Positions 14,203 through 60,846 of a stretch of 64,000 nt of DNA are shown here, piece after piece. Source of the stretch: Paragyromitra xinjiangensis (Eukaryota; Ascomycota; Pezizomycetes; Pezizales; Discinaceae). The notes under the pieces were generated by a model. The model made no database searches. It saw only the letters and a list, made by a program, of their open reading frames with translations, and had not been told where the DNA came from. The translations under genes were made by a program, and so were the position numbers. Position 1 is the stretch's first letter. Each line of letters begins with the position of its first letter. The stretch covers positions 372,001 through 436,000 of the forward strand of contig JBCAMK010000017.1 in assembly GCA_038503065.1 (NCBI GenBank). Reading direction: 5' to 3'.

Positions 14203-14252
14203 TACAGTGCTTCCCTACCTACCGGCGTTCCCTCGGTAACGGCGCGGCGTTT
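14203..14252 (+). repeat. Left terminal inverted repeat of the element
   Basis: It begins TACAGTGCTTCCCTACCTAC and matches the reverse complement of 60797-60846 with five mismatches in 50 bases, four of them transitions. The similarity stops abruptly on the inner side. It lies at the end opposite the captain. Confidence 0.82.
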
Positions 14253-14929
14253 GGGCCACTAAATTTTAGAAGCACTAAAAACAATTGTAAAGATCTGAAA
14301 AAAATTCAGGTTGAAGAATAATATTAGTAAAGTAATATAGGAGAAAATCTAATGTGTGCAATTGTTTCTGGTTGCAATAGCCCAGCTCTGGAGTTGGGGT
14401 TTTGTGCCAGCTTGTGTTGAGGGCTGCGACCAAAATACTTGGCTGCAAGAATAGAGACACAGCACCAAGCCCGAAAAGTTTATGCAAACTGAATCCAGTA
14501 GAGTATACACCAGATATTATACTATCATGCTATAAATTTTCAGCACATCCTGCTAATATTTGTTGGGTAATCGGTCTGGAATGCATGGAGGTAATACTTC
14601 CGATAACGGTAGCAGGAGTACCCTTTTGGCTACTTTCTGGGCCCAAATGTGGGTTCCCTTCATCTTGTGCTTGATATGTCCAAGAGTGGGCTTCACGTAC
14701 GAAACTTGTTCAAGCCAACGGTCCAAGTGCCAGGGCCAACACTCTACGCGCCTGGCCTCACAGCGCGTGTGAGCTAGTTTCAGCTCGCGCTGGCGCAGCG
14801 GTAACATGAATCTCGGTTATTGTTTCCCCAGCGTGGTCAACAAGGTAGACAACCTCACTAGTGTGTGTCAAGTGAAACTACGTACATTGACGTACGTTTG
14901 AACGCCCTTCTCCCTTTAAGATAACGTGG
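14253..14929. other. Subterminal region, no gene seen
   Basis: Non-coding between the left terminal repeat and the CGTACG array. Short frames only. Confidence 0.35.
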
Positions 14930-15900
14930 CGTAGGCGGGGTCAGCTTCCATGTCTAGGCGCGACTACGTACGATTGCGTACAATCGCGTACGGTTGGTGT
15001 GACGGCTTACCATTTATGCCCATGTGACAACGTACGACAACGTACGATCGTGTATATTTTTGGTGCTTTCAAGGTTAATATAACAAATAAGATCAGTTTC
15101 AGCGGTTTGTTGCCCCGTACGATTGCGTACGATTACATGCGATTCAGCAAGCAAGGAGCAAGGCAGAATATAACGCAAACAGGGATCTTCTTTGTACGGC
15201 TGCGTACGATCGCGTATATTTTTGGTGCTTTCAAGGTTAATATAACAAATAGGATCAGTTTCAGCGGTTTGTTGTCCCGTACGATTGCGTACGATTGCGT
15301 ACGATTACATGCGATTCAGCAAGCAAGGAGCAAGGCAGAATATAACGCAAACAGGGATCTTCTTTGTACGGCTGCGTACGATCGCGTATATTTTTGGTGC
15401 TTTCGAGGTTAATATAACAAATAGGATCAGTTTCAGCGGTTTGTTGTCCCGTACGATTGCGTACGATTGCGTACGATTACATGTGATTCAGCAAGCAAGG
15501 AGCAAGGCAGAATATAACGCAAACAGGGATCTTCTTTGTACGGCTGCGTACGATCGCGTATATTTTTGGTGCCTTCAAGGCTAATATAGTAAATAGGGGT
15601 CTATAACGAATAGGATCAGTTTCAGCGGTTTGTTGCCCTGTACGATTACGTACGACTACATACGATTGAGAAAGGAGCAAGGCAGGATATACCGCAAACA
15701 GGGATCGGTTCTGGCGGCTTTCCTTTCCATCTTCGTACGACTGCGTATGATCGCGTATATTTTTGGTACTGATCAATTTTAGCGGCCTGTTGCCCCCGTA
15801 CGATTACGTACTGTTGCGTAAGACTACGTACGATTAAGCAGAATATAGCGCAAACAGGGATCAGTTCTGGCGGCTTGTTTCCGCCTTTGCACGACTGCGT
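14930..15900 (+). repeat. CGTACG-rich tandem array, about 172-bp unit
   Basis: The segment GTATATTTTTGGTG recurs at about 15052, 15214, 15386, 15558 and 15755, giving spacings of 162, 172, 172 and 197 bp. Each unit carries several copies of CGTACGATTG/CGTACGATTA in direct succession plus a shared block beginning AGGATCAGTTTCAGCGG. The palindrome CGTACG is strongly over-represented. The open frames inside follow the repeat and are not taken as genes. The array lies about 0.7-1.7 kb inside the left terminus. Confidence 0.85.
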
Positions 15901-16158
15901 ATGGTCGTGGTAGATACTATCAAGGTTCCAAATGGAGTCAGTCCTGGCGGCTTACTGTTAGCGACTGCATATGATTGGGTACATTTCGCTGCGGTCAAGG
16001 CGCAACGTACGCTTGTACTTGCTCTTGGTGGTTACCATGCTACCCCAGCCTTGCTTCGCCCCGCAAAACAGGTTTACTTTCTAGATAGTGGGATACTTAT
16101 ATGATGGTTGGGACGGCGACAGTTTCGTATTTTCACACCACCTCTTGTGCTCTTAACT

Positions 16159-18427
16159 ATGACTTCCCCCGAAAAACAAGTAAGTTTACATTCTTTTCCG
16201 TATCTCTTTTATGACTATTTGAAGCTGACCACAACCCTCCTAGCCGTTGATTTCTCGTGGTACCGGTTACTTCGCCAGCAAAGGTTATCTAGATTGGGAC
16301 GTTGTCGATTACCTAAAGTACACGATTTTGCACGAGCCATGTAAATACGTTGAAGCACCCGCATTACGGCAGGCGTTCGATCTGGCGATCGATACCTATA
16401 TCAAAGAGTTGGAGAAAATTGACGATGACACGACGGGAAAATGGACAGTCGACCAGCGTGTCAAGGCTAGCCGGCTTATTAAGAATTATCGAAAGGTACG
16501 TGAACTTTACTCCGGAAACATAACAGATGGATATAATAGCATGGCGGGGACTTTCCGGTCCTTGATCATTCAAGGCTGATCGCCGAGCCATAACGCTGGC
16601 GTTGGGCAAAGATGACTTCCTTGGTCTATCTAACCCCCAACGGTGATCGCCGAGCTATAATACCAGTGTTGAGGCATCAGGTGACTTCTTCAGTCTACTG
16701 ATGTTAAGGCTTCTCGCTCACCCTTCACTGGTCCCACTGGGCACTGGGACTTCCTCGGTCACTGCTGTTCTGGTGGGTGATCACACTGATATTTTTACGA
16801 TCAAACTAGGGCGGCGGTCGGAAACGCGCCAAATTATGGCGTGAATCAACCGGTGTATCACGGGTATTTGTCCAGAATTCGTCTGGGTTCGCTATTGGAA
16901 ATCACAACCAGATCACAAACGTAAAGAAGAGGAAGCGGAAAGAGCGGGGCGATGAGGTTAGTTACGTTATTAAATCCATAGTGCTGTCGGTTTCCTGACA
17001 GAATTCAGTCCAGTGGAAACGTCCTGCCCTGGAGCCCAACTTCTTTCGTGAAGAAGTACAAGGAGATGGACAAAAGCTCTATGTGGGCACTTCCAAGTGG
17101 CACTTTCGTCGAAGCGGTTCTCTATGATAAATTACATGACGCAAGTCATGAGAGTTTGGGGCATTCATTTGTCATTGATGTCTTTGACCCTAACGTTGAG
17201 AGGCTCTTTGACCCATGTGATTGGGAGGCGATACTCCGTAAAGTACCCGAGTGGCCGGAGAACGACCGGTTGTTGGGGGAGTCGATGAAGAAATTTCACC
17301 AGGTAGGTTGATGTGGTCTGCATTGAGTTTCCTCGATCTTCCTCGATCTCACCTTTTCTCAAATAGCTGGAAACTACTGCGGATTTGCGGCATATTTTAG
17401 ACACAAATTCGTACCTACCCGAGGGTGAATCTTACGATCGCGATAAGCATTACGACTTATACTGGGTCCACTTGGTCTGGTCGATGTTGTGGGTATCCCA
17501 TCTTTCCTAACCCGCTTCTGTTGAGACTTATTCCTGGTTCTAGGCTCCCGCTATTTGAGGACCCTGATCAGGTGCTCCGGAAGAACAATCACGAAGCCTG
17601 GTACGACATCAATATCTGGTCTGTCATAGTCGATCGTTGTCTGCAGGACCTCCGGGGGATGGTTGTTCTTCGGTATGCCACTTGATCCTTTTAAGTGTCC
17701 CCTTCTGAACTCTTGCAGTAAGGAGTCGACCTGCTTCGCCAGTTCCCTTAGGAAAAATCGGGATAGAGTCGATACAAACAAACGGCAGAAAATCGGCTCA
17801 CGTTTTGATGGACTCGTTCGGGATAACAACGGCGAGTATGAGTATGCCGCGATAGAGGGTGCTAGGTCCTTCGGCGGTGTGACATGTACCAAATGGCTTC
17901 AGGACTCTCGGAGGGTAGCGAAAGCTCTCCATGACATGTTATCCCATCTACAGGATGAACTCAGTTGCCAGGATATAATTCTAGGTAAATTACAAGTGGT
18001 TGGGCTGGTGAGCGCGGGTAAGTGAGATTCGAGTCTCTCTACCTTTACTGATTGTACTAAAACGCTTCCAATTTAGGGTTACATTGCCAAGTTCTACGAA
18101 TGAATCATGCAGATGGACATGTGTGTATTCTGAGCCGAGATAAACTATGCAAGGTTCCCACCACGGTAAAAGAATCACAAGATTTGTTGATGCTGTTATT
18201 TAGTATTTGGCGGATGAAGGTGATTACGCCCCCCGTCACGTACTTGTAGTGGGTGAAATTTACTCATAAGCTCTTAGATGTTGATAAGGGATTGCAAGGC
18301 TACTTTCGACGGTCGTTTTGCCACGAAGTCGGACTTATTCGCACAGCTAATGAAGCAGCCTGGGTTGTCTTTTTCTCGTCCTATAGTTCCAACGTCTTGT
18401 GATACCGAAGGCTATGAAAGCTCATGA
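16159..18427 (+). CDS. Conserved-looking fungal protein of unknown function (cargo), nine exons
   Basis: The inferred exons (16159..16179, 16244..16495, 16810..16956, 17009..17302, 17367..17492, 17560..17672, 17719..18017, 18077..18219, 18278..18427) keep frame throughout and give about 514 residues with no stop. I do not recognise a named domain. Visible blocks are WYDINIWSVIVDRCLQDLRG, then SLRKNRDRV, then IGSRFDGLVRDNNGEYEYA with AAIEGAR, then KWLQDSRRVAKALHDM. The spacing of D, E and E-x-A around RFDGLV..EYEYAAIE is reminiscent of a PD-(D/E)XK nuclease-like core, which is only inference. The exon at 17560 could use another acceptor. It is the gene nearest the left end of the element. The full reading frame suggests it is not decayed. 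Confidence 0.6.
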
Positions 18428-22395: not shown

Positions 22396-24206
22396 CTAAT
22401 CAAAAGAAGACACGGTGCCCGCAGGCTTCTCTGGGCAGAAGAGCAGCTCTTCAAACCTAACATTTTCTCTAAGCATTTTCCCTACAATTTTGCGTATTTT
22501 ATCCCTAACAATATAGTCTGCGCAGACTTCAACCCCCCGATATCAGCGAAGCACCGCTTGCACCATCAAAAGTACATACCTGCAACAACTGTACGGCCTT
22601 TTTGCTCCTTGAGTTCGCGTTGCACAAGTGCTTCAATGTCGGGCATTTCATATACTTTTTTGACGCGTTTGTGAATTCCATACTCTACCCTATCGCCAGG
22701 TTGCATTTCCTGACTGTAGTATTGCCCAAGCACGTAGAGCTTTATATCGAGGATCTGGTTTGGTTTTATCAGCTATCACCTATCGAGCAAAATTATCAGT
22801 CCAATGTATACATAGTGTTCATCCAATTTCAATAGTTCCTTCATCCATTTGTTTACCCAACCTTCGTCGCACTCCTTGTCAATTTGCCAAAAGAGGGAAA
22901 TCCGTCCGGTTTTTACTTCACGGTTATTGTGTCCTTCTAGAAGCCTCCTTATATAAGGCAAATGCCCGGCAATGCCGATTCCGGTAGCAAATAGAACAAC
23001 ATTACCGTATGCACCAAGATCCTTCTCGATTCCATAAGGGCCTTCGATGAAAGCTCTTAGCGAGGAACCCGCATATCTCTTCAGATTCCTTGTAAATCCT
23101 TTGCGGGGCTGAATTAAAAACACAACTTCTGTGTCACCGTTTTCATCTCTGTGCCACCAACTAACGGCAAATGGATGGTATTGAAACCAGGCGCAAAAAC
23201 TGACTCCAGGGACGCAAAGATATATATACTGGCCGGCTTCGAATTTCCAGGGCCTCCGAACCTTTAAGCTCACCTGAAGTGCATCATCCGAGAGCTGCTG
23301 GATTTCCGCTCTCCCCGCAAATGAACCACGGACGATGTTCCGATATACCGAAAGAGCAATATGTAGAGCTATAGCTGCGCCTAGTATTGAAATCCCCAGG
23401 ATAAGATATATCTTCACTATCTTAGAAATGACATGGTACCACAGCATAGCCACAGTTACCATCGCGAACAGCATATGCATCTTTAAGAAAATCTCATAAA
23501 ATAGGTGGCGAATAAATTGTAGCGAGAAAAGGAAAAGAAATAGTATTCCTCCAGCTGCCTAGGAAATACGTAAGCTACAGTTAATAAGAGTGTGGGGAAG
23601 CGGCGAGGTTACCAGCAGCCCAGGAAGCTTAGGTTTTGACTTCACTTCTACGAGCGAGATGATTGCATGCGTGAGACCCTGAACAACAGCTACCCTCCCA
23701 ATCCATCGATGTGCACGGCTGTAATTCTCGTATGACAAGCCGCAAAAATCCGCTACCACATTCATGCGACCGCCGGCACACAGAGGTATCAGATTCACCA
23801 ACGACATCAGCCCTGACCGGGCCCCTAGCTGAGTGATGTTTTTGATCCCGAATACCAGGCATATAACATTCCCCGAGAGATATGACAGCACAAGAAGAGA
23901 CTGGAATCGAGTTATTGTACCTTCACCCCTCAAAATCTTAGGAATTTGGGGGTAGATTAGATGGCTGAGGATAAAGTATGCCCCAAGGTCATGTATAGTT
24001 GAAAGGGCGGTACGAAGTAAGCGATAGATAATGCAAAGAGCTATCAGCGCCCCGAAAGAAATTGCATACCATTGGGTGATTTCCATAGCTAGTTCTGCCC
24101 TGTGAAAGTATGGTACATGGCGCGACTTTATAGTAAAGCACCTCAAGGCTCCATTTTTGGCTGAAGCTGGAAATGGACGTAAAAAATAGACGTAAAATGA
24201 TGTCAT
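22396..24206 (-). CDS. Ferric reductase / NADPH-oxidase-like transmembrane protein (Starship FRE-type cargo)
   Basis: Exons on the minus strand are 24206 (or 24086)..23613, 23558..22812, 22754..22580 and 22526..22396. They are in phase and give 548 residues, or 508 from the second ATG (MEITQWYAIS). Several membrane helices carry the paired haem histidines (AHRWIGR and LTHAI; IRHLFYE and WYHVIS). The cytoplasmic half has the FAD-binding FQYHPFAVSWW, the NADPH-binding GIGIAGHLPYIRRLL and a C-terminal ending in VRFEELLFCPEKPAG. This is a plasma-membrane ferric/cupric reductase fold that moves electrons from NADPH across the membrane to Fe(III). All hallmark residues appear present. Ferric reductases are one of the recurrent accessory genes of Starships. 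Its neighbour on the same strand encodes a GPI-type surface protein. Confidence 0.88.
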
Positions 24207-24588
24207 CTGGGTGGGTGTGGAGCCACAGCTGATCTCACTAGTGGGCGCGTATGATCACAGTACGGTGGAGTGAGAGCTTGTCATATACGGTCTATAACTA
24301 CATGTATAATTCAATTGTCACATGCGTGTACTCAATAACGACGAATTCACACTCGAATAACTAGGAGCACAAAAAGAGCTAGAACCCTCGAAAAATGTCC
24401 GTCAAAGGAATAGCTGGTTTGCAAACCGGAACTCAATTTTGACCATATGCATTTTATTTTATTTTAGATACCCGCGAAAACGTTTATTAACACCCTCCTT
24501 GAATACATGCAAAAAATACCCCCAGATTGACTGGTGCTTAACATAAAACAAAACAAAACAAAACACACCATTCTTATATCGCAGGAAA

Positions 24589-29167: not shown

Positions 29168-32100
29168 CTACAAATCTTCTTTAGGCTCTGGTCTCCTCTC
29201 GAATGGGTTCGTGGTTGAAAAGTTGATTTCTGGCCCATCCTTCACCTGTTGTCGAAACCTCACTTCGCCCTCATTGGTTTCTGGCCCATGCATCACCTGT
29301 TGTTGAACCCTCACTTCGTCCTCATTGATCCCTGGCCCATGCATCACCTGTTGTTGAACCCCCACTTCGTCCTCATTTATCCTTATCCTTTTCCGGCCCT
29401 TAGCCGACTCCGCTAACTGGGTAACCTCAGTAGGAACGTCAGTCATAGCTTCCTTTGGGGGGCCTTTTGTCGGCCGGATAGTCTTAGCCTTAAACCTAGC
29501 TGCCGATTGAGAGTTCCCTTTGCTGAATTCTGACTTGCTCAAGAAACAAAAATATCTGGGGTTAGTTTCTAAGTACTTGGCTCTGTCGGTAATAGCTTGA
29601 CCTTTTGTGTCGACAAGTATAAGCCCTCCCTTCATGACCTTGGTTAGCAGCGTGTTCAGTTCGTTGGGCGCTATTCTCATCGCCCTTGCACCAAACGGAG
29701 AAGTAATTTTTATTTTAATCGAGTCTAATGACCTGTCCAAAGCGACTGCTTCTGCCTTCCTTAAGTCCTCGTCAACTATATCTTGATGTTGGGATACTTC
29801 CAGTTGCGTGGTAGCAACCCCCAGATCGGATGCTCTGTCTAGCTCTGGGGTTCCCTCGGCCGGTTCCGCTTGCATAGTAGTAGCCTCAAGAGCGAATTCT
29901 CTGGGTGGCACAGGGTAAGACGAATGTGGATCAATAAATCGCTCGTTTCGTCGATGTTGGATTGATTCCGTTTCTATGGTGTTGAGCTCTAGGCCAGGTG
30001 TTTCGGGAAGTTCAGGGACTATTTCAGTATCCTAGACGTAATGAGAATTAATCAGCAGCTATAGAGTGACACGAATACAAGAAGTGTCTTTTACCATCAC
30101 CGTATGGTATTCTGTCTGTTCCGCTTCCATGGTAGCACCGAGACTCCCAGGCGACACCGGGAGCAACGAATGTGGATCAATAGATTGCCTAGTTTGCTGG
30201 GTTGATTCCGTTTCTGTGGTGTTAACCTCTACTAGACTAGGTGTTTTGGGCAGTTCAGAGATTATTTCGGTATCCTAATAAGAACCAATCAACAGCTGCA
30301 GGGATATCCCATAGTTAATCGAGAAGTCACTTACCATCGATGTATAGTACTCTGCCTGCCCCGCTTGCGTTGCTGTGACTCCTGGATCGAATTCCCTGGC
30401 TGCCGGGGTTAGGCTTGAGACATTCTCGGGTTCCTAAATAAAAGTTAAAACACAGCCACTGTAATGTCAACACACTCACTATTGATAAGCCAACCAGCCA
30501 AGCGGACGATTGCCAGTAAAGCAAGGTCACATGACTAAATGATCTACCTGTGAGTATAATAATCCGTCTCTTACCATTCTATGACTAGGGGTACCAACAC
30601 CGAAACCATCGGTCCCAAAAAAAGAGAAGTAAAAAGCTTCTCTCGCTTGAAATGACGAAATTTCCTCTCGGCTACCGAGGTCGCCATGAAGGTTATCGAA
30701 GAAAAGGCAACGCTTGTCCCGTTCATAGTCAAACTGGAACGGACGTCCACATCTTCGCAGAAGATCTCCGGAAAATTTCTCGATTACCGAACTCGGTGCT
30801 AATGCAGCGTTTCGTTTTTTTACGAAAGTATCAAGAATAAGGGATATATTCTCGACGCTCTTTTCAAGGAACTTTTCGTCGTAGTTATAAGATTCCCGTG
30901 GTCTGGCATCAAGCAGGAACGCCCGAATCATTTCCTTCTTCGAATTCTCCGACCTGATCGTTTGTATATCGGCCGAGTTAAAACCAAGCTTACACGCTAG
31001 ATCTGCAAATCCAAGCCAGATATTATGATCGACTTCTCTTAGAGGTGGCTTGGATCGTCCGTTCTCCTTACGTGGTGATACTGAAACCAATTCCGGAAAA
31101 TGACGCATAGCATACATCCAAAGCTGCCTGTATCCCATTTCCATCTGTACAGGTAAACTTCCATTTGCGGTACGGAATATTCCTTCACCTATCTCTATCT
31201 TAAATGATCCGCTGTCTGTAGCGGCAAACGCATGCTGAAACTCCCTGTATACAGACGTTTTTGTCTTTTGGCTGCGCCCGACCAACTTCTTCATCGCATT
31301 TGCGAGAGGCTCGAGATATTTAAGATCTTCAAAGAACGTAAAAATGCTAGGTATTATTCGTTTTATTGCATGGATGTTGTGTAGGATTTCTGCTCTTGCC
31401 TGCGCACCTCGCACTGAAGGAAACAATGTCCCATTGCGCATGTTGTCATTTATCTCGGCTAAATCTCTTACTGAAGTTGGGGCACGCAGTTGTAAGACCT
31501 GGACAGATCTGTAGTCTACTGTTCCCATCAATTCTAGATGCCCTGTAAATATCTCCAACCACATGCTGTGAATATGACGAAGGTAATGGAGTAACTCCTC
31601 GTTGCGGTCAACACCAGCTGAAAAGCTATCAGGGAATCGAGTTCGGGCATACCTCGTCACAATTTAGGGTTAGGAATCTATGCAATGTGCCCAACTTGAG
31701 ACCAACCCATAAACCAGGTATATCGATGAGTTGGTCAAACGCCTGGCAAAACCCCGGGTGTTTCAAGAGTTGGCATAGATCTTTATCCTTTCCTTTAGAC
31801 AGGCGTGACCGCCATTGACTCTCCCCCATATTATCACCACTCTTATTGCATAAACGGATATGTCGCCAAATTTCCCCATCACTAATGTTCAACGAATTTT
31901 CGTAGTCTTGAACAATATTCCTTTGCAAGCACTGGCTGGCTAGCCTGATATCAGCATGCCAATGGTGCCGATTCAGATTTAACGGGTGGAATACCTTCTA
32001 CATAAATATCAACAACCCACCACTGATCGACCCGAGGTAGAAAACCATATGCGGCGAGGATACGATGCCTCCCATGCAGACACCTTAGCACGTTTTGTTC

Positions 32101-32415
32101 ACTAAACTCTAAGTGGGGATAGGGTCCGATCTGCTTTCGGGCGTTCCAAGCGCGCTCAAAGAGGGCCCCCTCGACAAGGACTGGCACATGGTTTTTTGCA
32201 TCTAGGCGAAGGCAGCCTTCCATTCCGAAAATTCTCTTCAGTCTCTCAACATTTTTCTTATCCAAATCACGTGAGTAATCACAGGTGAGCTGAATAGAAT
32301 CCAATCGAACTACTGCCGACCCCTTAAAGGACGATACCTTAGCGGAGTGTATATGATTTTCGACTTGCGATTGAACTCTTTCCATTTTTGGGATTTCTCT
32401 TGTTTTTAGACCCAT
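29168..32415 (-). CDS. DUF3723 family protein (Starship auxiliary gene)
   Basis: Exons 32415..31995, 31939..31653, 31597..30575, 30433..30335, 30274..30095 and 30031..29168 join in phase to 957 residues. Diagnostic DUF3723 blocks are LDKKNVERLKRIF, LDAKNHVPVLVEG, LRCLHGRHRILAAYGFLPR with DQWWVVDIYVE, ISDGEIWRHIR, PGLWVGLKLGTLHRFLTL, then EELLHYLRHIHSMW and IPSIFTFFEDLKYLE. Known: DUF3723 is one of the most frequent accessory genes of Starships; its function is unsettled. The C-terminal part is low complexity. Two tandem exons encode related segments (DTEIISELPKTPSL and DTEIVPELPETPGL, each followed by TETES and SIDPHS or FIDPHS), a duplicated exon-intron unit. A triplicated NEDEV/QQQVMHGP motif lies near the C-terminus. 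The complete frame suggests an intact gene. Confidence 0.9.
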
Positions 32416-32649
32416 CGGGAGAAACTTAGAGGTTTATATAGCACCCATTCATGCCAGCCGCGCGCCAGCGCAGTGTATCATTTTGTTTACATTCACAGCG
32501 CTTAGGCAGTCTTTTCTTATACTTAAGCCGAAACGAACTTTTCGGCAATTTCAAGCTAAATAAAGATTTGATAAAATTAACGACAGCTGCTTCTCTATAA
32601 AGACCAACAACACCACCACCGACCGATGGCCAACAAATCTCCATAGATC

Positions 32650-33191: not shown

Positions 33192-33715
33192 CTAATACAA
33201 AAGAGACTCCGACGGCCACCGTGTTCCAATTTGATAATATTCCACCCCCACCATCCCTGTAGCAACCGAAGCCACCAAGCGCGAGTACTCTCTTTCTTCC
33301 CACTGCTTCTGCTCTTGCTCATCTAGTTCAAGTATAGAGATTATCTATCATAGTCAGTTGAAGCTTGTGATAGCATTACGGATATTGGTTTGTTACCTTG
33401 TTTTGACCATGAGCAATATACGAGGAAGGTCCACCCCTACGATCTTCGGGGTGATTATCCTCTTGATCTTGATCATTAGATTCAAGAGTAGGGAATGACT
33501 TTCGGAGTTAGTTGAAGGCTATGGAATTATAGATGGTGTATTACCCTGTTTCGGATTGCGTAGAATTTTGTTCGCAGACCGTCCTGTGTCCTTAAGGTCC
33601 TGGAACGCATGTTGTAATGCTTTTGGATTTTATTCCATTGCTTTTTGCCGTGTTTCCTGTATAGACGTATGAGATAAAGGATATCCTGTGGACTGTATTG
33701 TGTTCTACCGGCCAT
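33192..33715 (-). CDS. Myb/SANT-like DNA-binding protein
   Basis: Exons 33715..33545, 33498..33397 and 33344..33192 join in phase to 141 residues. The first exon is a single Myb/SANT-like repeat: YSPQDILYLIRLYRKHGKKQ, then WNKIQKHYNM and LRTKFYAI, with the spaced aromatic residues of that fold. The second exon is acidic and polar; the third is a helix-rich Glu/Gln stretch (DEQEQKQWEEREYSRL). Myb/SANT genes are reported among Starship-associated genes (from memory). It is convergent with the MADS-like gene. Confidence 0.65.
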
Positions 33716-35126: not shown

Positions 35127-35452
35127 TTACATTACTTGCCCTTCTAAATCTTTTACTCTGCTAGAGCTATTAGTGATATAGAAGTTTTATAGTAGTAACT
35201 AGGGAGAACACACCTTGCCTCAAGCTGGATGATCCTTGGATTATCTTGCTCGTTGCTCGATTGCTGGGCTGTGGGTTCAATTTTTTCCTGGGTTTCTTCC
35301 GAGATTAGATCGGCGCCGACATTCAGGCCAGAACCAAAAATGAATTCAGAGTATTCAGAGGCGTCGAGAGGAAAACTCTGAAGATCGATTGGTGCGAGAA
35401 GCTCATCCATGAGTCTTTGAAACTCTTCTTCATTGGAGGAAAACCCTTCCAT
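35127..35452 (-). CDS. Small acidic protein with C-terminal coiled coil
   Basis: Exons 35452..35214 and 35157..35127 give 89 residues (56-bp intron GTGTGT..AGCAG). The N-terminus is acidic (SSNEEEFQRLMDEL) and the C-terminus after splicing is IIQLEARVKDLEGQVM, a short coiled coil with a heptad pattern. No family is recognised. Acidic region plus zipper would fit a small transcriptional regulator or dimerisation partner (inference). Confidence 0.45.
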
Positions 35453-41353: not shown

Positions 41354-42336
41354 ATGGAAAAACGCAGCGAAAATCGAGTGACTGCCTGGCCTGGAGAGTT
41401 TAATACTGGTCAAATAATCCCCCACCCGAAGCTTCCGCAGCCGCACATGCCAGTAGCTCTCAAGCCACTCAAACCCGTCCTCGAGGAACATACGCTTGTC
41501 CCTAGAATGGGGAAGCCCTGGAAATTTTATCATGGTTTCTTGCACATTGAACTTGGAGGGCCAGCAACGCTAGTGTATCGGAATAAGCCGGATCGCCAGG
41601 TTTTCGCTATAAAACAGCTTAAGGGCACGTATGACGATATTCGGGGATTGTTAGAAGATTCACATAAAAACATTGTCCGATGCTATGATACCTATGCCCT
41701 GCCCGACAGCTTCTTTTTGATCGAAGAATGTATGGACGTCTCTCTGATGGAAGTGATCGCTTGCCCTTGGGACATTGAGGAAGAACAGATAGCAACTGTG
41801 TGTATGGAGGTAAGTAATCTGATCGCATTCTTTTCCTTGAGGATATATTGACCTCTACTAGGTTTTAAGCGGGATAAAATTCCTCGAATCCCTGAGCTTG
41901 CATCATGAAGAAATCACTCCCCGGAACGTGTTACTTTCCATCGAAGGTGTAGTTAAAATTGGAAATTTCTCCCATTGTAAAAAGCGTCAGCAAGGCACGA
42001 GTATGTGTCAATCGCTAAGCCGCCTAGCTATGGAAATGATGGACAGGAATGTTTTCTTGGTTGCAAGTCTGACCGGGGAGCCTCCCGTCTTGCAAGACCC
42101 GCAGCGCTGGTCCAAGGTAGCAAATAATTTTGTCAATAGGCCCCTCTGGGCTTCCTTAGATGACATAGCCAATGTAAGTCATCTTCAACTAGAATTTTCG
42201 TCCAACTCTACTAAGAGATGCAGCATCTTTTTTTGAGAAACTCTCCTAACTGCAGGAGCCTGGTACCCCATATTCGATTCACCATGGCAACAGTACAAAG
42301 AGAATGGAGAGGTGTGGATTGAAGATATGTAGTTAG
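41354..42336 (+). CDS. Protein-kinase-like protein, predicted pseudokinase
   Basis: Exons 41354..41809, 41862..42173 and a third from about 42256 to 42336. Kinase landmarks are visible: VFAIKQLKG (the VAIK lysine), HKNIVRCYDTYALPDSFFLI then EECMDVS at the hinge, and LHHEEITPRNVLL where HRDLKPEN is expected. The catalytic Asp of HRD is replaced by Glu in the shifted motif, and the DFG motif reads GNFS, so the metal-binding Asp is Asn. The glycine loop is also weak. A third exon in the frame that reads WYPIFDSPWQQYKENGEVW fits better than the frame set by the most obvious splice, so either the junction differs or there is a 1-nt shift. It is unlikely to be catalytically active; it may be a scaffold or decoy (inference). 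Confidence 0.6.
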
Positions 42337-43276: not shown

Positions 43277-46200
43277 ATGTGTAAACATACAGCATGGCTC
43301 GGCCTTGCGGCTGGCTCTACGACTGGTTCGCATGGCACCATGTTATTAGAATTCAACAGACTTCAAAGTCTATTGGCGCTAAATGTGTTTCCAAATCCTT
43401 CGACCCAAACCCCATCTTTAATCGCTTTGGTTGGTGGAAGTTTTAAAACGAATGTAGTGAGGGCGTTGATTTCGCCGCCCAAATCTATGAGGGGTCAAGG
43501 TCACGCCGACGTCCATATTCATGTTTACCCTCCTACCATTAACCACAAAACCCCCGTCCTACTAGCAGATTACACATTTCCTGGACAGATCCAACACGAA
43601 CAATCCTATTTTGATATTAATTGCCACGAAATATTTTGGAGGCCCTTGTCCTGGACCAATCAATCAGGGAAAGAGCTCACACCAGAAAATGTGGCGGAAA
43701 ATGTGGCGGAAAATGTATTAGCTCGCCTCCTGGCGCCTTTCACTGACGTAATATGTATTTTCTCCTCAGATTTTGGGGGCCTTGTGGTGTTGGAGGGCTT
43801 TTGGAAGCGTTGATGCGTAAGGGGAATGCATCGACATTGCCTCAGGTGGTCCGTCCAATTGTATTTGTTGTGATGGACAGTGCTGCCATTCCTCCTCATG
43901 CGAACTTGATTGCGAAACAGTTTTTATTAGAAATGCTGCACTTCAATGGGGAAATTTCGGCCTATTTTTCCAATTTGACGGTATTGCACATCTCTCCCAG
44001 AAAACCCCAAGCGCTCTTAGACCACATACTCCCCGCGGTGGAGGAAATGCAGCGAAGGCGCAAAGAGGCTCGATATCTCTTCTCCTTAGAACATTTTTCA
44101 GCTCTTTTCAAACATGCATGTGATCATTTCTCGAATACAATTACTGAACCTGTTGACTTTGTTAAATTCTCAAGACTTCGAAATCCTATACCACAGGCAT
44201 TCCCACAGCATCTCGCCGAACTTCTGGGACAGATGTCGACAGAAACTGAGATAACCAACTCTGGCGTCCCATTAATTGCCTCAAGCCTATTTTTGGATAG
44301 CAACCCGCCAGGTATGCATGGTTAGTCGTCACCATCCGTAGTTCGGTGACTAAGGCGGTGACTAAGGATGTGCTTTCTAGTTTTCGATCCAGCGTGTACT
44401 TTTAGACTTTTTTACAAAGGCCACTGCGATGCCGCTATTCGAACCCACCCATTATATGGACAGCAACATGCCTTTATTGCTTCGATAACGCCTCTTCTTG
44501 AATGTCAGTTCAGGATCCTCGTCCTTGATTTCGAAAAAAATCATAGAACTTCTGCACAACTACACCGTGAAACGCTCGCAAACCACAGGCAAGTTTGGAG
44601 GGGTTTAAGAAGCGAGATAACTTGTTTCTCCTGTCTTGCTCGTGGGCCTGAGAAAGGCCTTCCTTGCGGTCATGCTGTGTGTGAGATTTGTATCCAAGTG
44701 TTTGGGCATTCGGCGCTTATGGAACCGCATACATTTGTGATCGACCGATGCCCTCTTTGTGGTACCGGCTTCTCGGATTTTAAGGCACAAATTAAACCTC
44801 CAACAGCAGGCATTAGAGTATTAAGCATCGATGGAGGGGGGATACGTGGGGTCGTACCGTTATCAACCCTACACGAGCTGGAGAAGTCGATAAATCAGCT
44901 GGCCGGCTTATCTTATCCCATCCAGGAAAATTTCGATTTAGCGTATGGAACAAGTTCAGGTAGGCCCTCACTTACCCTTCGAAGCAAAATCACTAATAGG
45001 GTAGGTGGTTTGATTGTTTTCGGATTGTTTCTCAACGGCTGGTCCGTGGAAGAGTGTTTGGAGAATTTTGTCACACTGGCTAGAAGAGCTTTTAGGCCCC
45101 GGGACTTTGGCATCCCTTTCTTACAGAAATTTCAGAAATTTCTAGTCTCATATCTTGCAGATAGTCGATACGGGGCCACCAGCTTGGAGATTGCTCTTAA
45201 AGATGCCTTCGGTACCAGCGCTATGCTTGATTGGTCTGAATCATGCAATTTCGGAACGAAAGTGGCTGTGACAGCTACCACAGTTGAAGATTCATCTCCA
45301 TGTATATTTTCTAGTTATAGTGGCATGGGAACCCGATCGGCCGAGTGTGGTATGTGAGAATATCTCCGGTTTCTATACGCACTAACCCTTGTCTAGGGTA
45401 CACAGTGATTAAGAGTAACTCGAGGAAGGTCTCTGTCTGGGAAGCGTAAGATTGTACAATATCCAATATCCTATGGTGTACTGACAAAAGTATTAGTGCT
45501 CGATGCACTTCTGCTGCTCAATGGTTTTTCAAACCAAAACACCTCCCAGGTCTAGGCACTTTTCAAGATGGGGGCCTCCGCCACAATAATCCAGTAAACA
45601 TCGCTTTATGGGAATCAAGAGTAATATGGCCGAACGAGAGTATACTGGATATTGTTCTGTCCATGGGTACAGGTTCAGCATCCGATCTGGCTAGAAAATC
45701 TTTTGGCCCCAGAGGTGTATGGAGAGATGGCTTTATTTCTCGCCTTGTTCGTTCGTTTCTGACCTCTATGGACGGTGAAGATACATGGCAACAGCTCTGT
45801 AACCGGCTCCCAAAGGAAGTAAAAGACAAATATTTCCGGTTTAACATTAGATTCGACGGCAGCGAACCAGCTATAGATGATGTCGACAAGATGCAAGAAC
45901 TACAGCAAAAGGGTAAAACACAGATCGAAACGGGAAACAAGATTGACGTGGCGGAGTCACTCATTGCGAAACAGTTCTATTTCGAATTGGAGGCATCGCC
46001 AATATACTACAAAGGGCGATATCAATGTGTTGGCCGCTTGATCTGTCGCTTTACCGGAGCTCGAAAACTGGCATTTCTCGCCCGACTATCCCAAAATTCA
46101 GCACATTTCCTCTTAGGCCAAAGATCTATAACAAGGGTTTCACAATCATCAAGTGGGGCATTCAGAGAAACAATTTCTTTTAGTGTTAAAGATTTAGACG

Positions 46201-46424
46201 AAGAAGTATCCATCTCTTTAGGGAGCAAATCTACTAAGCCACGAAGTATTAGTGGATTCCCAACTTCGATGACATCCTTGATCTGTGCCCAAGGCTTAGA
46301 TATTATATTCGGAGCTGCCAATCACTCAAAACGGAAATCAAACTACCCCCCTGCAGATCCACTACGGGCGAAACGGCAATGCTCTGGAGCGAAAGTTAAT
46401 CAGGAGCGTACTAGGTCACGATAG
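43277..46424 (+). CDS. RING-type patatin-like phospholipase (Starship PLP-type cargo)
   Basis: Exons 43277..43783, 43822..44311, 44381..44959, 45005..45349, 45397..45445 and 45497..46424 join in phase to about 965 residues. N-terminal part: degenerate P-loop-like GGSFKTNVVRALI and LLADYTF, then ICIFSSDFGG. Middle: a RING-like zinc finger CFSCL..GLPCGHAVCEIC..CPLC. Then the patatin domain: oxyanion loop DGGGIRG, nucleophile elbow GTSSGG (formed across a splice site) and the catalytic DGG in FQDGGLRHNNPVNIAL. All catalytic residues are present. Known: patatin-like proteins hydrolyse acyl lipids; related fungal PLPs act in heterokaryon incompatibility and are recurrent Starship cargo. Oddity: the first intron as drawn is only 38 bp (43784-43821); the alternative is a 1-nt frameshift. 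Confidence 0.85.
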
Positions 46425-48765: not shown

Positions 48766-51511
48766 CTAGAATCGCAACGTCCGCTCCAACGCCGTTCCCA
48801 ACACCGGTCCCAACACCGGTCCCAACACTCCCAGAAATGTCCCCAGAATTAAAAGGAAAGCCGCGAGAAACAAAGTTAGTTTGTTAAAGCCCAGTGAGCC
48901 ATATTCCATCTGTTCAATGAAGGCGTTGGTATTGGTGATGGATTGCTCCATATACATAGTGCACTTTTCGATTCCCTCCAAATTCGTTTTTTGGGCTGAA
49001 GCGCTGTTAGCCAGGGCTACAAAACAAGATTGAGGTGTCATACTTTTTTCCGCGCTATCAGTAAACATATTTAGACATCGCGCGAAATTTTGGAGGTGTT
49101 GGCACTGGTCTAGGGCTGTTAGCTGGTGTGGATGGGTAACAGAGTTGTGGCGCCATACCGATCAAAGCTTTACCTCCTTTATCGGCGAAATATTTCTGTT
49201 GATCTTAAGGGCTGTTAGCTAGCGCTGTTGGGAATGGAAACTACAACCATACTTTCCAAAGCAGAAGCACAAACATCCTTGAGAAAGCCTAGCGCTGTTA
49301 GTTTGGCTAAAAATGGGGATGGACAAAGCATACCATCGTTACTTCTCAGGACCGTAAGTTCTTCTTTCAGAAGTTTCATGTTATTGGCCGCAACTGGCAC
49401 TGTTAGCTTGGCTGATAAAGATAAGTGACTAGAGCATACTTCTGTAGGACCTCGAGAGTCTATTCTTCTCGATATTGGTCTCATCAACCGCGTCTGGGGC
49501 TGTCAGCTTGGCGAGTAAGATAAGTGGCGAGAACATACCTCTCTCAGCCGCTAGCTCTGTGATCAAGGCCTTGCACTCTTTTGTCTTACGCTCTAGATTA
49601 TCGTCCCGGTACTGTTAGCTCGGTTGATAAGTGGCTAGGGCGTGCATACCTTTGTAGTGCTCCAAGTCCTCGCACTCTTTTGTCTTACGCTCCAAATTAT
49701 CTTCCACGGCTGGTGCTGTTAGCTCGGTTGATAAGTGGCTAGGGCGTGCATACCTTTGTAGTACTCCAGCTCTGCCTCACGTCTCGAATCATTGGTCTCG
49801 GCTGGCGATGTCGGCTCGGCTGGCGATGTCGGCTCGGCTGGTGATGTCAGCTCGGTTGATAAGTGGCTAGGGCGTGCATACCTTTGTAGTACTCCAGCTC
49901 TACCTTCAAGTCCTCGCACTCTTTTGTCTTACGCTCCAAATTATCTTTCGCGGCTGGTGCTGTTAGCTCGGTTGATAAGTGGCTAGGGCGTGCATACCTT
50001 TGTAGTACTCCAGCTCTACCTTCAAGTCCTCGCACTCTTTTTTCGTACGCTCCAAATTACCTCCCACGGCTGGTGCTGTTAGCTCGGTTGATAAGTGGCT
50101 AGGGCGTGCATACCTTTGTAGTACTCCAGCTCTACCTTCAAGTCCTCGCACTCTTTTTTCTTACGCTCCAAATTATCTTTCGCGGCTGGTGCTGTTAGCT
50201 CGGTTGATAAGTGGCTAGGGCGTGCATACCTTTGTAGTACTCAGCTCTACCTTCAAGTCCTCGCACTCTTTTTCGTACGCTCCAAATTATCTTTCGCGGC
50301 TGGTGCTGTTAGCTCGGTTGATAAGTGGCTAGGGCGTGCATACCTTTGTAGTACTCCAGCTCTACCTTCAAGTCCTCGCACTCTTTTGTCTTACGCTCCA
50401 AATTATCTTTCGCGGCTGGTGCTGTTAGCTCAGTTGACAAAGACAAGCAGTCAAAGCATACCTTGGAGCACCCCGCGCTCACTCTGATGATTTTCAATAT
50501 CACCGCGTGGAGATGTAGGGACTAGCGATAGCGGAGCCTCACTAGATACAGTTATGAGATCCTTATCTTCACTTCTGCCGTTGGCCGGGGCCGAGGGTTG
50601 GGGAGATTCGGGAATGGACTTTGTTGCTACACAACCCGTCCGAGTGCCATCATCTACTGGAAAGCGGTAGGAGGCCGGGGCTGGGGCCGAGGGCTGGGGA
50701 GATTCGGGAATGGACTTTGTTGCTACACAACCCGTCCAAGTGCCATCATCTACTGGAAAGCGGTAGGAGGCCGGGGCTGGGGCCGAGGGCTGGGGAGATT
50801 CGGGAATGGACTTTGTTGCTACACAACCCGTCTGAGTGCCATCATCTACTGGAAAGCGGTAGGAGGCCGGGGCTGGGGCCGAGGGCTGGGGAGATTCGGG
50901 AATGGACTTTGTTGCTACACAACCCGTCCGAGTGCCATCATCTACTGGAAAGCGGTAGGAGGCCGGGGCTGGGGCCGAGGGCTGGGGAGATTCGGGAATG
51001 GACTTTGTTGCTACACAACCCGTCCGAGTGCCATCATCTACTGGAAAGCGGTAGGAGGCCGGGGCTGGGGCCGAGGGCTGGGGAGATTCGGGAATGGACT
51101 TTGTTCTACACAACCCGTCCGAGTGCCATCATCTACTGGAAGCGGTAGGAGGCCGGGGCCGGGGCCGAGGCTGGGAGATTCGGGAATGGACTTGGCAAAG
51201 TGTGTTGCTACACAACCCGCGGTTCCTGGCGAATCGAGTTCCTCTTCTTCCTCTTCCCCTTCTACCACTCCTTCTTCCACTCCCGCTCTTTCTCCTTCTC
51301 TTTCTCCTAAAGTCCGTAGTTAATATATATGTTTTGATATGTCTAGGCAAAAGATAGAAATACTTGTTAAGAGGGTACGGTTCAAGTAATTGTTTGAATT
51401 TAACGAAGAAGGCAGCGTTCCATAGCCCATTCCTAGCCTAGTGTTTATCATTGAAGAACGCTGATAGGGTGGGAACCCCATGATGTCAAGAGAATCGTTG
51501 GTAGAACTCAT
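48766..51511 (-). CDS. Repeat-built coiled-coil protein with C-terminal membrane segment (many micro-exons; possibly disrupted)
   Basis: Read on the minus strand: a first exon from ATG 51511 (MSSTNDSLDIMGFPPYQ); after a roughly 50-bp intron an acidic stretch; then six to seven 32-residue repeats (96 bp each; KSIPESPQPSAPAPASYRF then VDDGT); then about eight 116-bp units, each a 72-nt exon (24 residues, DNLERKTKECEDLKVELEYY, coiled coil) plus a 44-bp intron GTATGC..CACCAG; then further short coiled-coil exons through 49200-49600; and a last exon (48766-49068) ending in one hydrophobic helix (TLFLAAFLLILGTFLGVLG). A 2-bp deletion in the repeat at about 51106 breaks the frame between the first part and the rest, and a 1-2 nt difference affects the unit near 50240-50270. 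These may be mutations or assembly errors. Exon limits are approximate. Function unknown; a membrane-tethered coiled-coil rod is inferred. Confidence 0.5.
49630..50460 (-). repeat. 116-bp tandem exon-intron repeat, about eight copies
   Basis: GGCTAGGGCGTGCATACC recurs at 49633, 49737, 49865, 49981, 50097, 50213 and 50327, mostly 116 bp apart, plus a variant start at about 50440. Each unit holds one splice donor, one acceptor and a 72-nt exon in the same phase, so copy-number change keeps the reading frame. One unit (49790-49855) also carries a small GGCTCGGCTGGCGATGTC triplication. Confidence 0.88.
50590..51200 (-). repeat. 96-bp coding minisatellite, about six copies
   Basis: GGACTTTGTTGCTACACAAC occurs at 50616, 50712, 50808, 50904 and 51000, exactly 96 bp apart, with a degenerate copy at 51096. 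96 bp encodes a 32-residue Pro/Ser/Ala-rich repeat. The copies are almost identical (single-base differences), implying recent amplification or gene conversion. Confidence 0.92.
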
Positions 51512-55558: not shown

Positions 55559-57431
55559 ATGAAAAGCAACGAAGAACTATTGGCTTTAACAGATTTCGTA
55601 TCCAATGCCTCTAACGAGACGATTTCAACTATAGCAAGGGACCGGCTAATCATGAATCTTATAAACAACTATCTTGATCGAACCACCGACTCTGATCGGG
55701 AGGTAATATCGGCAAGCTTAATCAACTTCTCGCTTGTGGAGAGAAATAGGAAAAGGCCTCGAGGACTATCCACCACCTGTGGGAGCGCTGAGATTCTGCA
55801 TAAAGTATCTAGAAGCGATTCAGAGCGATCGGTTGCGATTGAGAAAGTAGTCTCTATATGCCAAGATTTTGACTGTCGGTATGCTCAAAAGATGATATCC
55901 GAATGGAACGCCAATGGAAGCCTGAGTTTCTCGCACAAAGGGATCCTCTGGTGTGGGCCCGGGAATGAAACAGAAGCAGACAAAGTTCGGCGTCTACACA
56001 CTACAGCTATGCTTTCTGAGACTGAGCTCGGTCTAGTTGCTATTCAACGGCGACTATCATATTTATTCCTAGCCTGTGTTTTTGAAACACCTGAACGCGA
56101 TAAACACCAGGCATCAATGAAATTATTGGAGATGATCCACGGGCCTGGATGGAACGACAAACCAGACGGCGAAAGGAAAAAAAAACAACTTAATTATAAA
56201 ATCAAAGCTGGGAGAAGGTGGCTTCAGCTAGGAAGAGAGTTTGGGGTTGGCATTGTGATGCTTCCAGGACCTAATTTCCAGCATTCCTTGTATGACCCAC
56301 CTAGAAAATGAAAGGATAGTACTGATGAGTAGCAGCTTCGAACACAAGATGAAAAATTCTTCCGTTCCGCTGCTTATTAATTGTATAAAGGGAAGTCACC
56401 AAGATTTGGTCAAACTGGCTTCCGAGGCGACATTAACTATCACTCGACATATCGGCATCATTCCGCCTGGGTTGGGGGCAGAAAACCTTACCATTTTAGG
56501 GACTCATGATATGGAAGGCCAATTTTGCCGTGATTCCCCGTCGACCAAGGGTGTATCCCTTAACGACATATGTGGCAACAGCCAAGATATGGAAATTGCC
56601 CAGCCAGAGATAGTGGTGCGTAGCGATGGATTTCAGCTGGGATCATTTGGAAAATGGCAACCCTTGCCGCCTTGTGACCAATGTGATCCCTTCTTCTGGG
56701 ATGAATGGGTATTCAAATCTTTTCTCTTGGTTCCTTCTCGTGCTGAAGAATTAGCGGTCAAAAATCTCCGGACAGCAGTGGAGTATTCCGCCGTATCAGT
56801 TTTCCGAAGATACCCTCACAAGACTACTGCCTGGCGGCATGTTAAATGATGAGATCATAAATTTTCTTCTATTTTACTATCACTCTGTTTCACCTTCGTA
56901 TAAGAGCTGCCACTATCTCCCTGTTAAATCTCTCGCGCTATCCTCAAATTACTCCCGCCAAAGTGCCCTAGGGCGATACGAAGCATCAAAGATCGTAGTC
57001 CCATTTTGCCGAGAAGAAAATTATTGGGTTCTACTTCTTATTGAGTACAGTACTAAGACCTTTGTGGTTTATGACCCTATGCATAAACAAACGGATTGGG
57101 AGAGGGTTAGTTACCTAGACCTTATTCTTTGTCATCCCCTTTTGCTAAATTTTATTAAGGTGCTTCATGATATACTTGAAAATGATGGCCACCCTACAGA
57201 CGGATGGTACATCGATAATACTGTAAGTGTGCATACATCCCCATCCTTAATATTGCATGTTGAAATATATAGAAATGTGCGGCTCAATCCAACGATGCGG
57301 ACTGTGGTGTGCACCTAATATGGAATGCAAAGTGTCTCTTTAATTCCTGCGATCCAGTCGAGATCAAGTGCGAGAAACTGAGGGAGGAATTTGCGGGCAT
57401 CTTGGAGGGTTCATATCGTACCAAGATATAA
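55559..57431 (+). pseudogene. Ulp1/C48-like cysteine protease gene with a frameshift
   Basis: Exons 55559..56289, 56330..57222 and 57273..57431. The C-terminal domain is a C48 (SUMO-protease-like) fold: LLPGGMLNDEIINFLLFYYH, IVVPFCREENYWVLLLIEY, VVYDPM, and across the last splice QSNDADCGVHLIW with the oxyanion Gln and catalytic Cys. The catalytic His expected before W (HW) is Tyr here (NYW). At about 56779 the frame must shift by one base to go from RAEELAVKNLRTAV to WSIPPYQFSEDTLTRLL; no acceptable intron is present, so the gene is either mutated or mis-sequenced there. The N-terminal 250 residues match no domain I can name. Ulp-type domains are common in fungal mobile-element genes. Confidence is high for the family, moderate for the pseudogene state. 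Confidence 0.7.
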
Positions 57432-58123: not shown

Positions 58124-60243
58124 TCAGCCCTGCTGGAGACAATCGCCTAGGCTCAGAGGAATGCCGTGATGTAAAACAAAGTGATTTTTGAAGATTCCGA
58201 TTTTGCTGCACTGGACCCCACAGGGGCATTGGATTGGAGTACTCGTAGTCCTGGGTAAATGTTTCGAGACTACGTGACGTTTTAGATTTGAGCGAGTCGA
58301 AGCCTTAGTTGAGCAAAAAGGGCAGGCAAGGGATTTTGGAATTTGCTTGTAGACTGTTGAATCTTCCCAAATTAGTTCGAGTTTTGGTTCGTTGGCATCG
58401 GACAGGCAGGCCGTTGGAGTTGTTTGAAGATCCGGCTTTGAATCCTGCCCTAAATCCTCCAAGGCGGTGCTGGGCAAACAGAACTGAATAAGATCTCGGA
58501 TGATGTCAGGGCGTCGGTGGTTTGGGTTCGGGCGACCGAAAATCGACTCCACAAGAGATTTATGCCAGTCAGATAGATAGACACGTTCCTCCACATGTAG
58601 TGGCGGTTCTTCTCCAGCCAGTTGCTGCTGGATCTCCCGGCTGCTCCTGGTTTTGAACCACTCAGCCCTGAGTTGAATTGTACCATTGTTAATAAGCTTC
58701 TCTTTCCTACTCTTTATTAACAGGTCCAATTCACGAGAAGCCTCGGAGCCATTTTCGGCCCTGCCCCGATCTTTGATTAGCCCCTCCAAAAGTTCGTCAC
58801 TAGCCCATATCTTTTCGATTTGATCCCTATCCAATTTGCACGGAGCCATGGGATCTCTTTCCAGTCGTCGCAGAGCTTCGAGGATTTCTGATTGTGGGGC
58901 TGTTCCAAAGAAGGCAGCTTGTGTATCAATCCGAATATTTCTGTCGGCATAGTAGCCGGCGAAAATTTGCGGGGTTGTATGCCCCATGATCTGGGTTAGC
59001 TCCGCAGGTGTTGCAACACGACTTATCGCGTTTGATGCCCCCCTTCGTAACCAATAACAGGTGACACTTCTGGCAAAACCAGCGTGCAGCCCGCCATTTT
59101 TTAGCATTCCGGAAATTGCTGCATATGTCATGGGGTTTCCGTCGGAGCCACAACATATTGGTGTATTTAGGAGCTCTGGCTTGAACGAAATCTCCATGTA
59201 GGGCGTTGTTCCTGTAACCCGAAGGTCAAACAGATTCCCTGGAGCATTCATATCCGCAATCTCGAAGGCTTGCCTCGCACAAGCTAATGTGATGAAGTCG
59301 AATAGGGGACAAAGAACTGTGTTGTCCATCTCGAAAAGAGCAAACCCAAGGCTAAAGTCTCGTTAGAAATTTCTACAGAGCTTTGCGACCGTTACTACTT
59401 ACGCCACTTCATCTCTTTTGCCCTTTAGTTTCGTCAAATTTATCTCAAGTGCGAACTTGCACTGACCGGATGGATATCTGACAAGGTATAGCTTTACGTC
59501 CTAGTATCCATTAGTCTTTTCTCCTTGATCTCCACGAATAGAAGTCGAGGTTTCCTAATACCTTATAAAAAAGAGCTTCGTTCTTGTAGGTTGATGTCTC
59601 CATTATAGCACCAGGCCTTGTAGCGGTGTACGCCATTATTTTAGCCATAAACGAACATTGGATCAATCGAAGGTCGGGCCGATAATTCTTCCACTTCCAG
59701 AGACCCTCTAAGATGTTGACGAAATCGCTCGACGTGACCACCGCCTTATCTCCACCCCTAGTTTTCAAGCCAAACGTTCCAGCCATCTCTTTCTTCATGT
59801 GCTATTTTGGTTGTTAGTTCCCTCTGAAGTGAAAAAAATAAAGGCTAAACTTACCAGATGTACAGCTGTATTGATATCGCTCCTAACCTGAAGCCCCCCC
59901 ATTTTATCGCGATAGAGTGACTGCAGGTTTTTATACGCGGTTTTCAGTGAAGAAATACACTGTACCTTCGTTACCGTAGCCTTCCAATCAAGGTAAGTCG
60001 CTATATCCTCCGCATCCATCTCTTTCATAGTCTCTTCGGGATCGCACTGGAGCTCATCCTTGCAAAAACTGAACTAATTAGTACTAACGAAAATATGGGG
60101 TAGGATGGGTTTTTATTTACTAACCGATCCCATAACCGTTTTTCACGATCCATTGATAACTGGGTACTAGGGGCATAGTCTTTGGTTGTAGCCAGCCTCT
60201 TGGTCTTGCGCTCTGCTCTCTTTGCTTTCCAGTCTGTCGCCAT
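58124..60243 (-). CDS. Starship captain: DUF3435 tyrosine recombinase with C-terminal C2H2 zinc fingers
   Basis: Exons 60243..60125, 60068..59855, 59801..59562, 59500..59403 and 59351..58124 join in phase to 632 residues. Catalytic landmarks of the tyrosine-recombinase core: MAYTATRPGAIMET (first Arg), KDVKLYLVR and LTKLKGKRDE after it, CYWLRRGASNAI (second Arg), LTQIMGHTTPQ (His) and AGYYADRNIRIDTQAAFFG (nucleophilic Tyr region and DUF3435 signature), then LRRLERDPMAPCKL. The C-terminus has two zinc fingers (CPFCS..HVVSKH and CPCGVQC..HFVLHH). Function: DNA cutting and joining that moves the whole element. The first ATG considered is 60243 (MATDWKAKRAERKTK); an in-frame start at 60408 is possible. 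All introns are 46-60 bp with good ends, and no stop or frameshift was seen, so it looks intact. Confidence 0.92.
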
Positions 60244-60509
60244 CTTGTCTGTGAACTTGGGATATTTGAATCTAGGGATGGATATCGTTGACTTCGAGGA
60301 GTGTCGGGTGAGCGAGTAGTTATTTGGTGCTCTTCCGGCGAGGAAGAGCTGTATCTTTATCTCATCGAGAATATGGGACACAGCCCGCCCATCAGGGCTC
60401 CAAAGCATGTAGCCTAAGTTTGGCCATTAACTTGACTGTTCGTTCCATCGTGAGACCTCGTGCGCGTCCGCCATGTAGAAAAGACTTCGTGGGAAAATCG
60501 GAAGGATTT
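60244..60509. promoter_or_regulatory. Probable captain promoter / 5' UTR
   Basis: Directly upstream of the captain ATG. An in-frame upstream extension to 60408 exists. No specific element was identified. Confidence 0.35.
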
Positions 60510-60640
60510 GTCGAAGAACTAGTCTATCATTGAAGCGAACTCATCTGTCGGTGAAAGGGACTGGCCTAGTAATGAAAGAAAGGACTTGTTGGTGAAGAGG
60601 GAACCACTTGTTGGTGAAGTGATGGCACTTGTTGGTGAAG
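60510..60640 (+). repeat. Subterminal 21-22-bp direct repeats upstream of the captain
   Basis: ACTTGTTGGTGAAG is repeated exactly at 60584, 60606 and 60627, with degenerate relatives just before (CTATCATTGAAGCG, CATCTGTCGGTGAAAG, CTAGTAATGAAAG). Spacing is 21-22 bp, two helical turns. Located between the captain start and the right terminal repeat. Confidence 0.85.
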
Positions 60641-60796
60641 CGAAAACGCTTGGCAATTTTTTAGTCTAGGTGGAAACTATTTACAGTTTCTTAAACAAAA
60701 AAAAGAATCCAAGAATGGTTCCTGAAGCCCGTTTTAAGCGACAAATGATCTCCAGATTTTGTTACTATGGAAAGTTTGGGCGTTGCAATCTGGTTG

Positions 60797-60846
60797 AAAT
60801 GCCGCGACGTTACTAAGGGAGCGCCGGTAGGTAGGGAAGCACTGTA
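60797..60846 (-). repeat. Right terminal inverted repeat of the element (captain end)
   Basis: Reverse-complement partner of 14203-14252. It lies about 550 bp upstream of the captain start codon and about 620 bp before the flanking MFS gene, which is where a Starship 5' terminus is expected. Confidence 0.82.

Follow-up and report, generated by a model that had tools for sequence, protein, structure and literature searches.

An apparently complete Starship nested within a split miniature transposon in Paragyromitra xinjiangensis

The 64,000-bp stretch of the Paragyromitra xinjiangensis genome analysed here, called the window below (C17:372001-436000 in our contig numbering), contains a Starship, i.e., an element whose captain, a tyrosine recombinase, moves it by site-specific recombination with a short target. 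As judged from its sequence, the interval 14568-60768 on the reverse strand is a genuine, apparently complete Starship nested in a split miniature inverted-repeat transposable element (MITE). Almost certainly, a 46.2-kb Starship with its captain end at the right was integrated into a pre-existing, approximately 440-bp, Tc1/mariner-like non-autonomous transposon. An earlier note on this DNA had placed the Starship at 14203-60846, between 50-bp inverted repeats regarded as its termini. These repeats are real, but they end the small multicopy transposon that the Starship has split. The intervals concerned are as follows.

14568-60768, reverse strand: the Starship proper, 46,201 bp, with its captain (5') end at 60768 and its 3' end at 14568 or 14569
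14203-14567, forward strand: left part of the small transposon, about 365 bp, with the left inverted repeat at 14203-14252, placed by matches to unsplit copies
60769-60846, forward strand: right part of the small transposon, 78 bp, with the right inverted repeat at 60797-60846, placed by matches to unsplit copies
14566-14567, forward strand: GG, left copy of a 2-bp direct repeat, from the junction alignment
60769-60770, forward strand: GG, right copy of the same direct repeat, from the junction alignment

Of the 50 positions compared between the inverted repeats (14203-14252 and 60797-60846), 45 match, and the only other inverted pair detected in the window (seed 14, minimum length 25) is a 34-nt, 76% A/G-rich pair. 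The same genome (48.2 Mb in 22 contigs) holds at least 15 further copies or remnants of a transposon that is approximately 440 bp long and has CAGTGCTTCCC ends. Besides the window, 15 places matched the first 298 bp inside the left repeat. From a query comprising the last 547 bp of the element as reported earlier, those places share only the final 78 bp, whole or in part, which in most copies lie some 440 bp away from the left end. Although the left query was extended to 15000, its match ends at window position 14565-14570 in all 15 fetched copies, while the right-side match begins at 60769 or 60770 in 14 of the 15, the two pieces being adjacent in the copy. The exception, L030, carries a deletion just past the junction, yet is continuous across the junction in the alignment.

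At the level of single bases, the aligned unsplit copies read straight on as TTGTTGGGAAAG; at the corresponding place, the window has TTGTTGGG followed by 46.2 kb and GGAAAG. The unsplit copies run through TTTGTTGGGAAAGTTCGGG uninterrupted, with small variants among them, whereas the window has TTTGTTGGG up to 14567, then the 46.2 kb, then GGAAAGTTTGGG from 60769. This junction pattern is present in 12/15 copies; the remaining three (L030, L034 and L035) miss the pattern, and their alignment rows run through. The copies are not all whole, as the left end of L026 has been replaced and no more than a remnant is left of L035. Because the copies match both window parts and run on across the interruption, the two parts evidently belong to one small transposon, split 365/78 bp by the 46.2-kb element, and the unsplit copies of this target in the same genome can be read as a paralogous empty site of the Starship.

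The small element is short, multicopy and bounded by inverted ends, as expected of a MITE, and the longest open frame per copy spans 44-89 aa. Identity to the window copy ranges over 72-97% among the copies, which makes the family probably older than the Starship's spread. In 9/15 copies as cut for alignment, both ends carry TA. Together with CAGTG at the start, this points to a Tc1/mariner-type MITE, with the limit that, lacking empty sites of the small element, the TA is indistinguishable from part of the repeat. The superfamily call rests on TA and CAGTG ends, which we take to be traits of the Tc1/mariner superfamily.

A second copy of the Starship lies on contig C2 (C2:1332926-1384854). 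It measures 51,929 bp vs. 46,201 bp in the window, is colinear with the window copy end to end and is 98.82% identical to it over 45,617 aligned positions (538 mismatches). In both copies the left terminus is AATCGGTCTGG and the right terminus CCAGATTTTGTTACTAT; outside these, the two have in common only the GG at the right junction, and their 2-kb flanks give chance matches of 12-16 bp only. The C2 junctions, marked here by a slash, read ...GGGGC/AATCGG and ACTAT/GGCAAACC, so that a 3-bp repeat, GGC, is possible there; the flanking direct repeat is thus GG in the window and GG or GGC at C2, weak in that it is so short. A small transposon was not found around the C2 copy, where an unsplit-copy query against 70 kb matched only 19 bp (E 0.58). 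One C2 flank holds a dispersed repeat of about 225 bp at 260 bp from the element, and the other gives partial genome matches only, at 67-89% identity. With the same termini at two loci and unrelated flanks, this Starship has evidently moved.

Comparison of the termini defined by the two copies reveals no terminal inverted repeat above chance level. Under one scoring scheme, the best local match between the outermost 60 bp of the two ends scored 7, which was reached by 286 of 500 mononucleotide shuffles. The earlier suggestion of an unusually long terminal repeat falls for this reason. Likewise, 14203-60846 as Starship boundaries is ruled out by the 15 unsplit copies together with the C2 termini, and both the boundaries and the supposed terminal repeats are an artefact of nesting; the 50-bp inverted repeats would play no role in Starship movement. 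In place of the empty site that the earlier note had expected, joining 14202 to 60847, the unsplit small-transposon copies show a junction of about 14567 with 60769. The earlier note had also held that many solo copies of the 50-bp sequence at the ends of an unrelated small transposon would speak against it; such copies do exist, and they undo the boundaries but not the element. The search it proposed for further copies with the same boundaries yields a second element copy, at C2, but one without 50-bp-repeat ends. What stands of the proposed complete Starship is an element that looks complete, with an open captain, typical cargo and signs of having moved; the proposed limits do not stand.

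The captain and the repeats near the two ends occupy the following positions.

58124-60243, reverse strand: captain of the DUF3435 family, 632 aa, hand-spliced from five exons
60586-60640, forward strand: 5' subterminal repeats TTGTTGGTGAA(G), i.e., TTGTTGGTGAAG, in three exact copies
14880-15900 (limits approximate), no strand: 3' subterminal array of CGTACGATTGCGTACG-type repeats, with 172-bp tandem units inside

A full-length, inward-pointing DUF3435 captain about 600 bp inside one end had been reported, and its presence, place and orientation hold. The hand-spliced window copy (exons 60243-60125, 60068-59855, 59801-59562, 59500-59403 and 59351-58124) is an open frame of 632 aa with no stop, the four introns being predictions placed by hand via splice and branch motifs. 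Residues 138-472 match DUF3435 with an E-value of 4.5e-44. The ATG at 60243 lies 603 bp from 60846 and 525 bp inside the true end at 60768, and the captain is the outermost gene at the 5' end, pointing inward; the sole frame of at least 110 aa nearer the end (60025-60426) contains its first exon. Candidate tyrosine-recombinase residues, assigned from motifs typical of such enzymes, are R173, R326/R327, H348 and Y357/Y358. The C-terminus gives weak zinc-finger-like matches below the Pfam cut-off, with a KCMF1 zinc-binding segment at E 0.0012. Among solved structures with E ≤ 1, zinc-finger chains matched this C-terminal part and one ribonuclease matched weakly (E 0.94), with no recombinase among them. 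A single relative of the captain, from a JGI source, was recovered at 73% over 63% of the query (7997 best candidates scored), and none was confirmed in viral contigs. Within the genome, DUF3435 (PF11917) and the last captain exon matched only at the C17 and C2 loci, and a third full Starship copy was not found; these searches give lower bounds.

From what is typical of its family, the captain would excise the element and recombine it into a short target; insertion here would have split the small transposon 365/78 bp and left GG at each junction. CGTAC/GTACG has 49 starts in 14000-15999 and at most four in any other kilobase, and the three TTGTTGGTGAA(G) copies are the only exact ones in the window. 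As a guess, the subterminal arrays may be recombinase-binding sites. A further locus, C15:1244147-1244362 (L059), matches the captain-end terminal approximately 235 bp of the element at 69% identity; the shared letters end with GATTTTGTTAC, at 3 bp from the end of the window element. A tblastn search (E 0.01) of the 20 kb fetched around it gave no captain relative, and the locus is either an old end fragment or part of a related element.

Both ends of the 46.6-kb interval are common to the small copies, and a single internal deletion followed by amplification would yield just such a common junction. One could thus suppose that the Starship itself ends in the 50-bp repeats and that the approximately 440-bp copies are its internally deleted derivatives. 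We consider this extremely improbable and in effect ruled out by the C2 ends, the continuity at the junction and the divergence, i.e., the C2 copy lies elsewhere without 50-bp-repeat ends, a second GG is absent from the small copies, which run on exactly where both Starship copies end, and the small family is 72-97% identical to the window copy vs. 98.8% between the Starship copies. A composite, in which the outer small-transposon ends are still usable and both the captain and a Tc1/mariner-type transposase could move the whole 46.6 kb, would fit the state of the outer arms in the window. They match at 45/50 positions, no worse than the best unsplit copies (42/49 to 45/50 in L021-L025), and TA is present at both ends. 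However, genome searches did not find a second copy of the composite, and 46.6 kb far exceeds the 440 bp of the small family, so that we give this explanation next to no credence. Also very unlikely is a doubly mobile unit, served by the captain and a Tc1/mariner-type transposase, combined with a minimal captain core of 2-3 bp. Here the TAT beside GG at the 5' end, which is present in both element copies and absent from the older C15 end fragment, might have been brought along from a previous site.

The preferred reading, a Starship inserted into a pre-existing small transposon, has several points weighing against it. The empty-site evidence is paralogous and does not come from the orthologous locus of another strain, and the pre-insertion site of the C2 copy was not found when 800 bp of each flank was searched in the genome. 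The direct repeat, 2 bp here and possibly 3 bp (GGC) at C2, is no proof of the ends alone. Base 14568 is a T that agrees with neither the C2 flank nor the unsplit copies and is unassignable, which is why the left end is given as 14568 or 14569. In addition, an inverted repeat is missing from the true ends, whereas most curated Aspergillus fumigatus Starships carry one (PMC12153272). Finally, movement is read from comparing sequences rather than observed directly.

Inside the element, the following further features were recognised.

30527-32433, reverse strand: DUF3723 gene in three exon-like pieces, from profile matches
22776-24254, reverse strand: ferric reductase-like gene in two open pieces of one frame, from Pfam
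44362-46424, forward strand: RING-patatin gene in two pieces, from Pfam and reading by eye
41351-42236, forward strand: weak protein-kinase-like pieces, from profile matches
33527-33862, reverse strand: Myb/SANT-like DNA-binding piece, from a profile match
56755-57318, forward strand: possible Ulp1/C48 peptidase piece (20.8 bits vs. a cut-off of 20.7)

The DUF3723, ferric reductase and RING-patatin genes previously reported between the ends are all present. Three neighbouring pieces match DUF3723 with E-values of 3.2e-87, 1.1e-29 and 1.3e-16, and the ferric reductase carries Ferric_reduct, FAD_binding_8 and NAD_binding_6 domains. The patatin matches (E 3e-5 and 8e-5) both fall below the family's curated cut-off, and a RING-like Cys/His cluster, read by eye, lies upstream of the GGGxRG motif of patatin and shares its frame. 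No NLR domain appeared in the 38 frames scanned with Pfam among the 58 element frames of at least 110 aa. Window 50487-51201 consists of 96-bp tandem units open in several frames; its Pfam matches (Tnp_DNA_bind and Statherin) include no stretch significant alone and look like repeat artefacts. Elsewhere in the genome, C1:1120381-1122369 (L048) matches two stretches within window 16528-18411 at 70-73% DNA identity and is perhaps a diverged relative of a cargo gene, no gene having been identified in that part of the window. A further DUF3723 match lies at C9:2023085-2023955, with no DUF3435 match reported on contig C9.

The C2 copy shows decay, with a premature stop at codon 386 of its captain and one stop in its DUF3723 match. 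It also carries three inserts of more than 1 kb that are absent from the window copy. One, of 1,036 bp, has GTACG on both sides and TG...CA ends, resembling a solo long terminal repeat. The other two, of 2,313 and 2,078 bp, are related to each other and correspond to window positions 45388 (within the patatin gene) and 48277. Their ends are CATCAG...CTGATG, and their minisatellite-like bodies consist of imperfect tandem repeats. TT or AT flanks these two on both sides, and they may represent a family of non-autonomous transposons whose class is unclear. The element copies differ in length at four more places, by 117-252 bp, C2 being longer at three of them and the window at one. Divergence per 2-kb bin is mostly 0.15-1.6%, with 2.8-4.1% in four bins at 34-42 kb, and since it is so uneven, the copies are probably not simple parent and daughter. 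The divergent zone, window 34000-42000, includes a 506-aa open frame (38593-40113) over tandem repeats; exchange with an unseen copy and fast-changing genes are both possible there.

Taking C as the older base, C-to-T differences in C2 fall at 113/4114 CpG sites vs. 136/17022 other C sites, and in the window copy at 62/4114 vs. 141/17022. The CpG excess is thus found in both copies, strong in C2 and less so in the window. CpA-type repeat-induced point mutation (RIP) was considered as a source of the differences and was not seen, the excess being at CpG and not CpA; the pattern suggests methylation-type decay rather than classical RIP. Recent Starship activity is possible; of the aligned bases, 1.2% differ between the two copies, and the C2 copy is decayed.

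Insertion-site transposons are described as a source of erroneous target, direct-repeat and terminal-repeat calls (PMC12153272), and the locus is a clean example of this curators' trap, in which such a transposon produced false terminal repeats and false boundaries. Starships of some captain families prefer to insert into other transposons (PMC12134995), a pattern that the present insertion fits, and such insertions have been reported (PMC12134995, PMC12153272), for which reason we claim no novelty for the insertion itself. A whole-word literature search turned up no published Starship inserted within a MITE. No target preference can be claimed, because there are two insertion sites only, one of them in a transposon. 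The locus adds one apparently complete Starship with an open captain, together with a decayed sister copy, and near base-level Starship ends could be obtained from a single genome because the target is repetitive and its unsplit copies act as empty sites.

Captains are described at the 5' end of Starships, as necessary and sufficient for transposition, and among curated A. fumigatus Starships direct repeats (2-12 bp) are present in 19 of 20 and terminal inverted repeats in 18 of 20 (PMC12153272). The element described here resembles these in its outermost, inward-pointing captain, its size, its short direct repeat and its same termini at two loci, and its DUF3723, ferric reductase and patatin genes are prevalent Starship cargo (PMC12134995). 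It differs from the A. fumigatus set in that no terminal inverted repeat was found, and its 2-3 bp direct repeat is at the low end of their range (PMC12153272). The captain's weak C-terminal zinc-finger-like matches may be a further difference. The split target is like a Tc1/mariner-type MITE in its length of about 440 bp, inverted ends, TA (9/15) and multiple copies. ToxTA in Sanctuary (PMC12506042) is a related case, since there too a TA-duplicating Tc1/mariner-type element and a Starship are nested; in that case, the small element lies inside the Starship, whereas here the Starship lies inside the small element.

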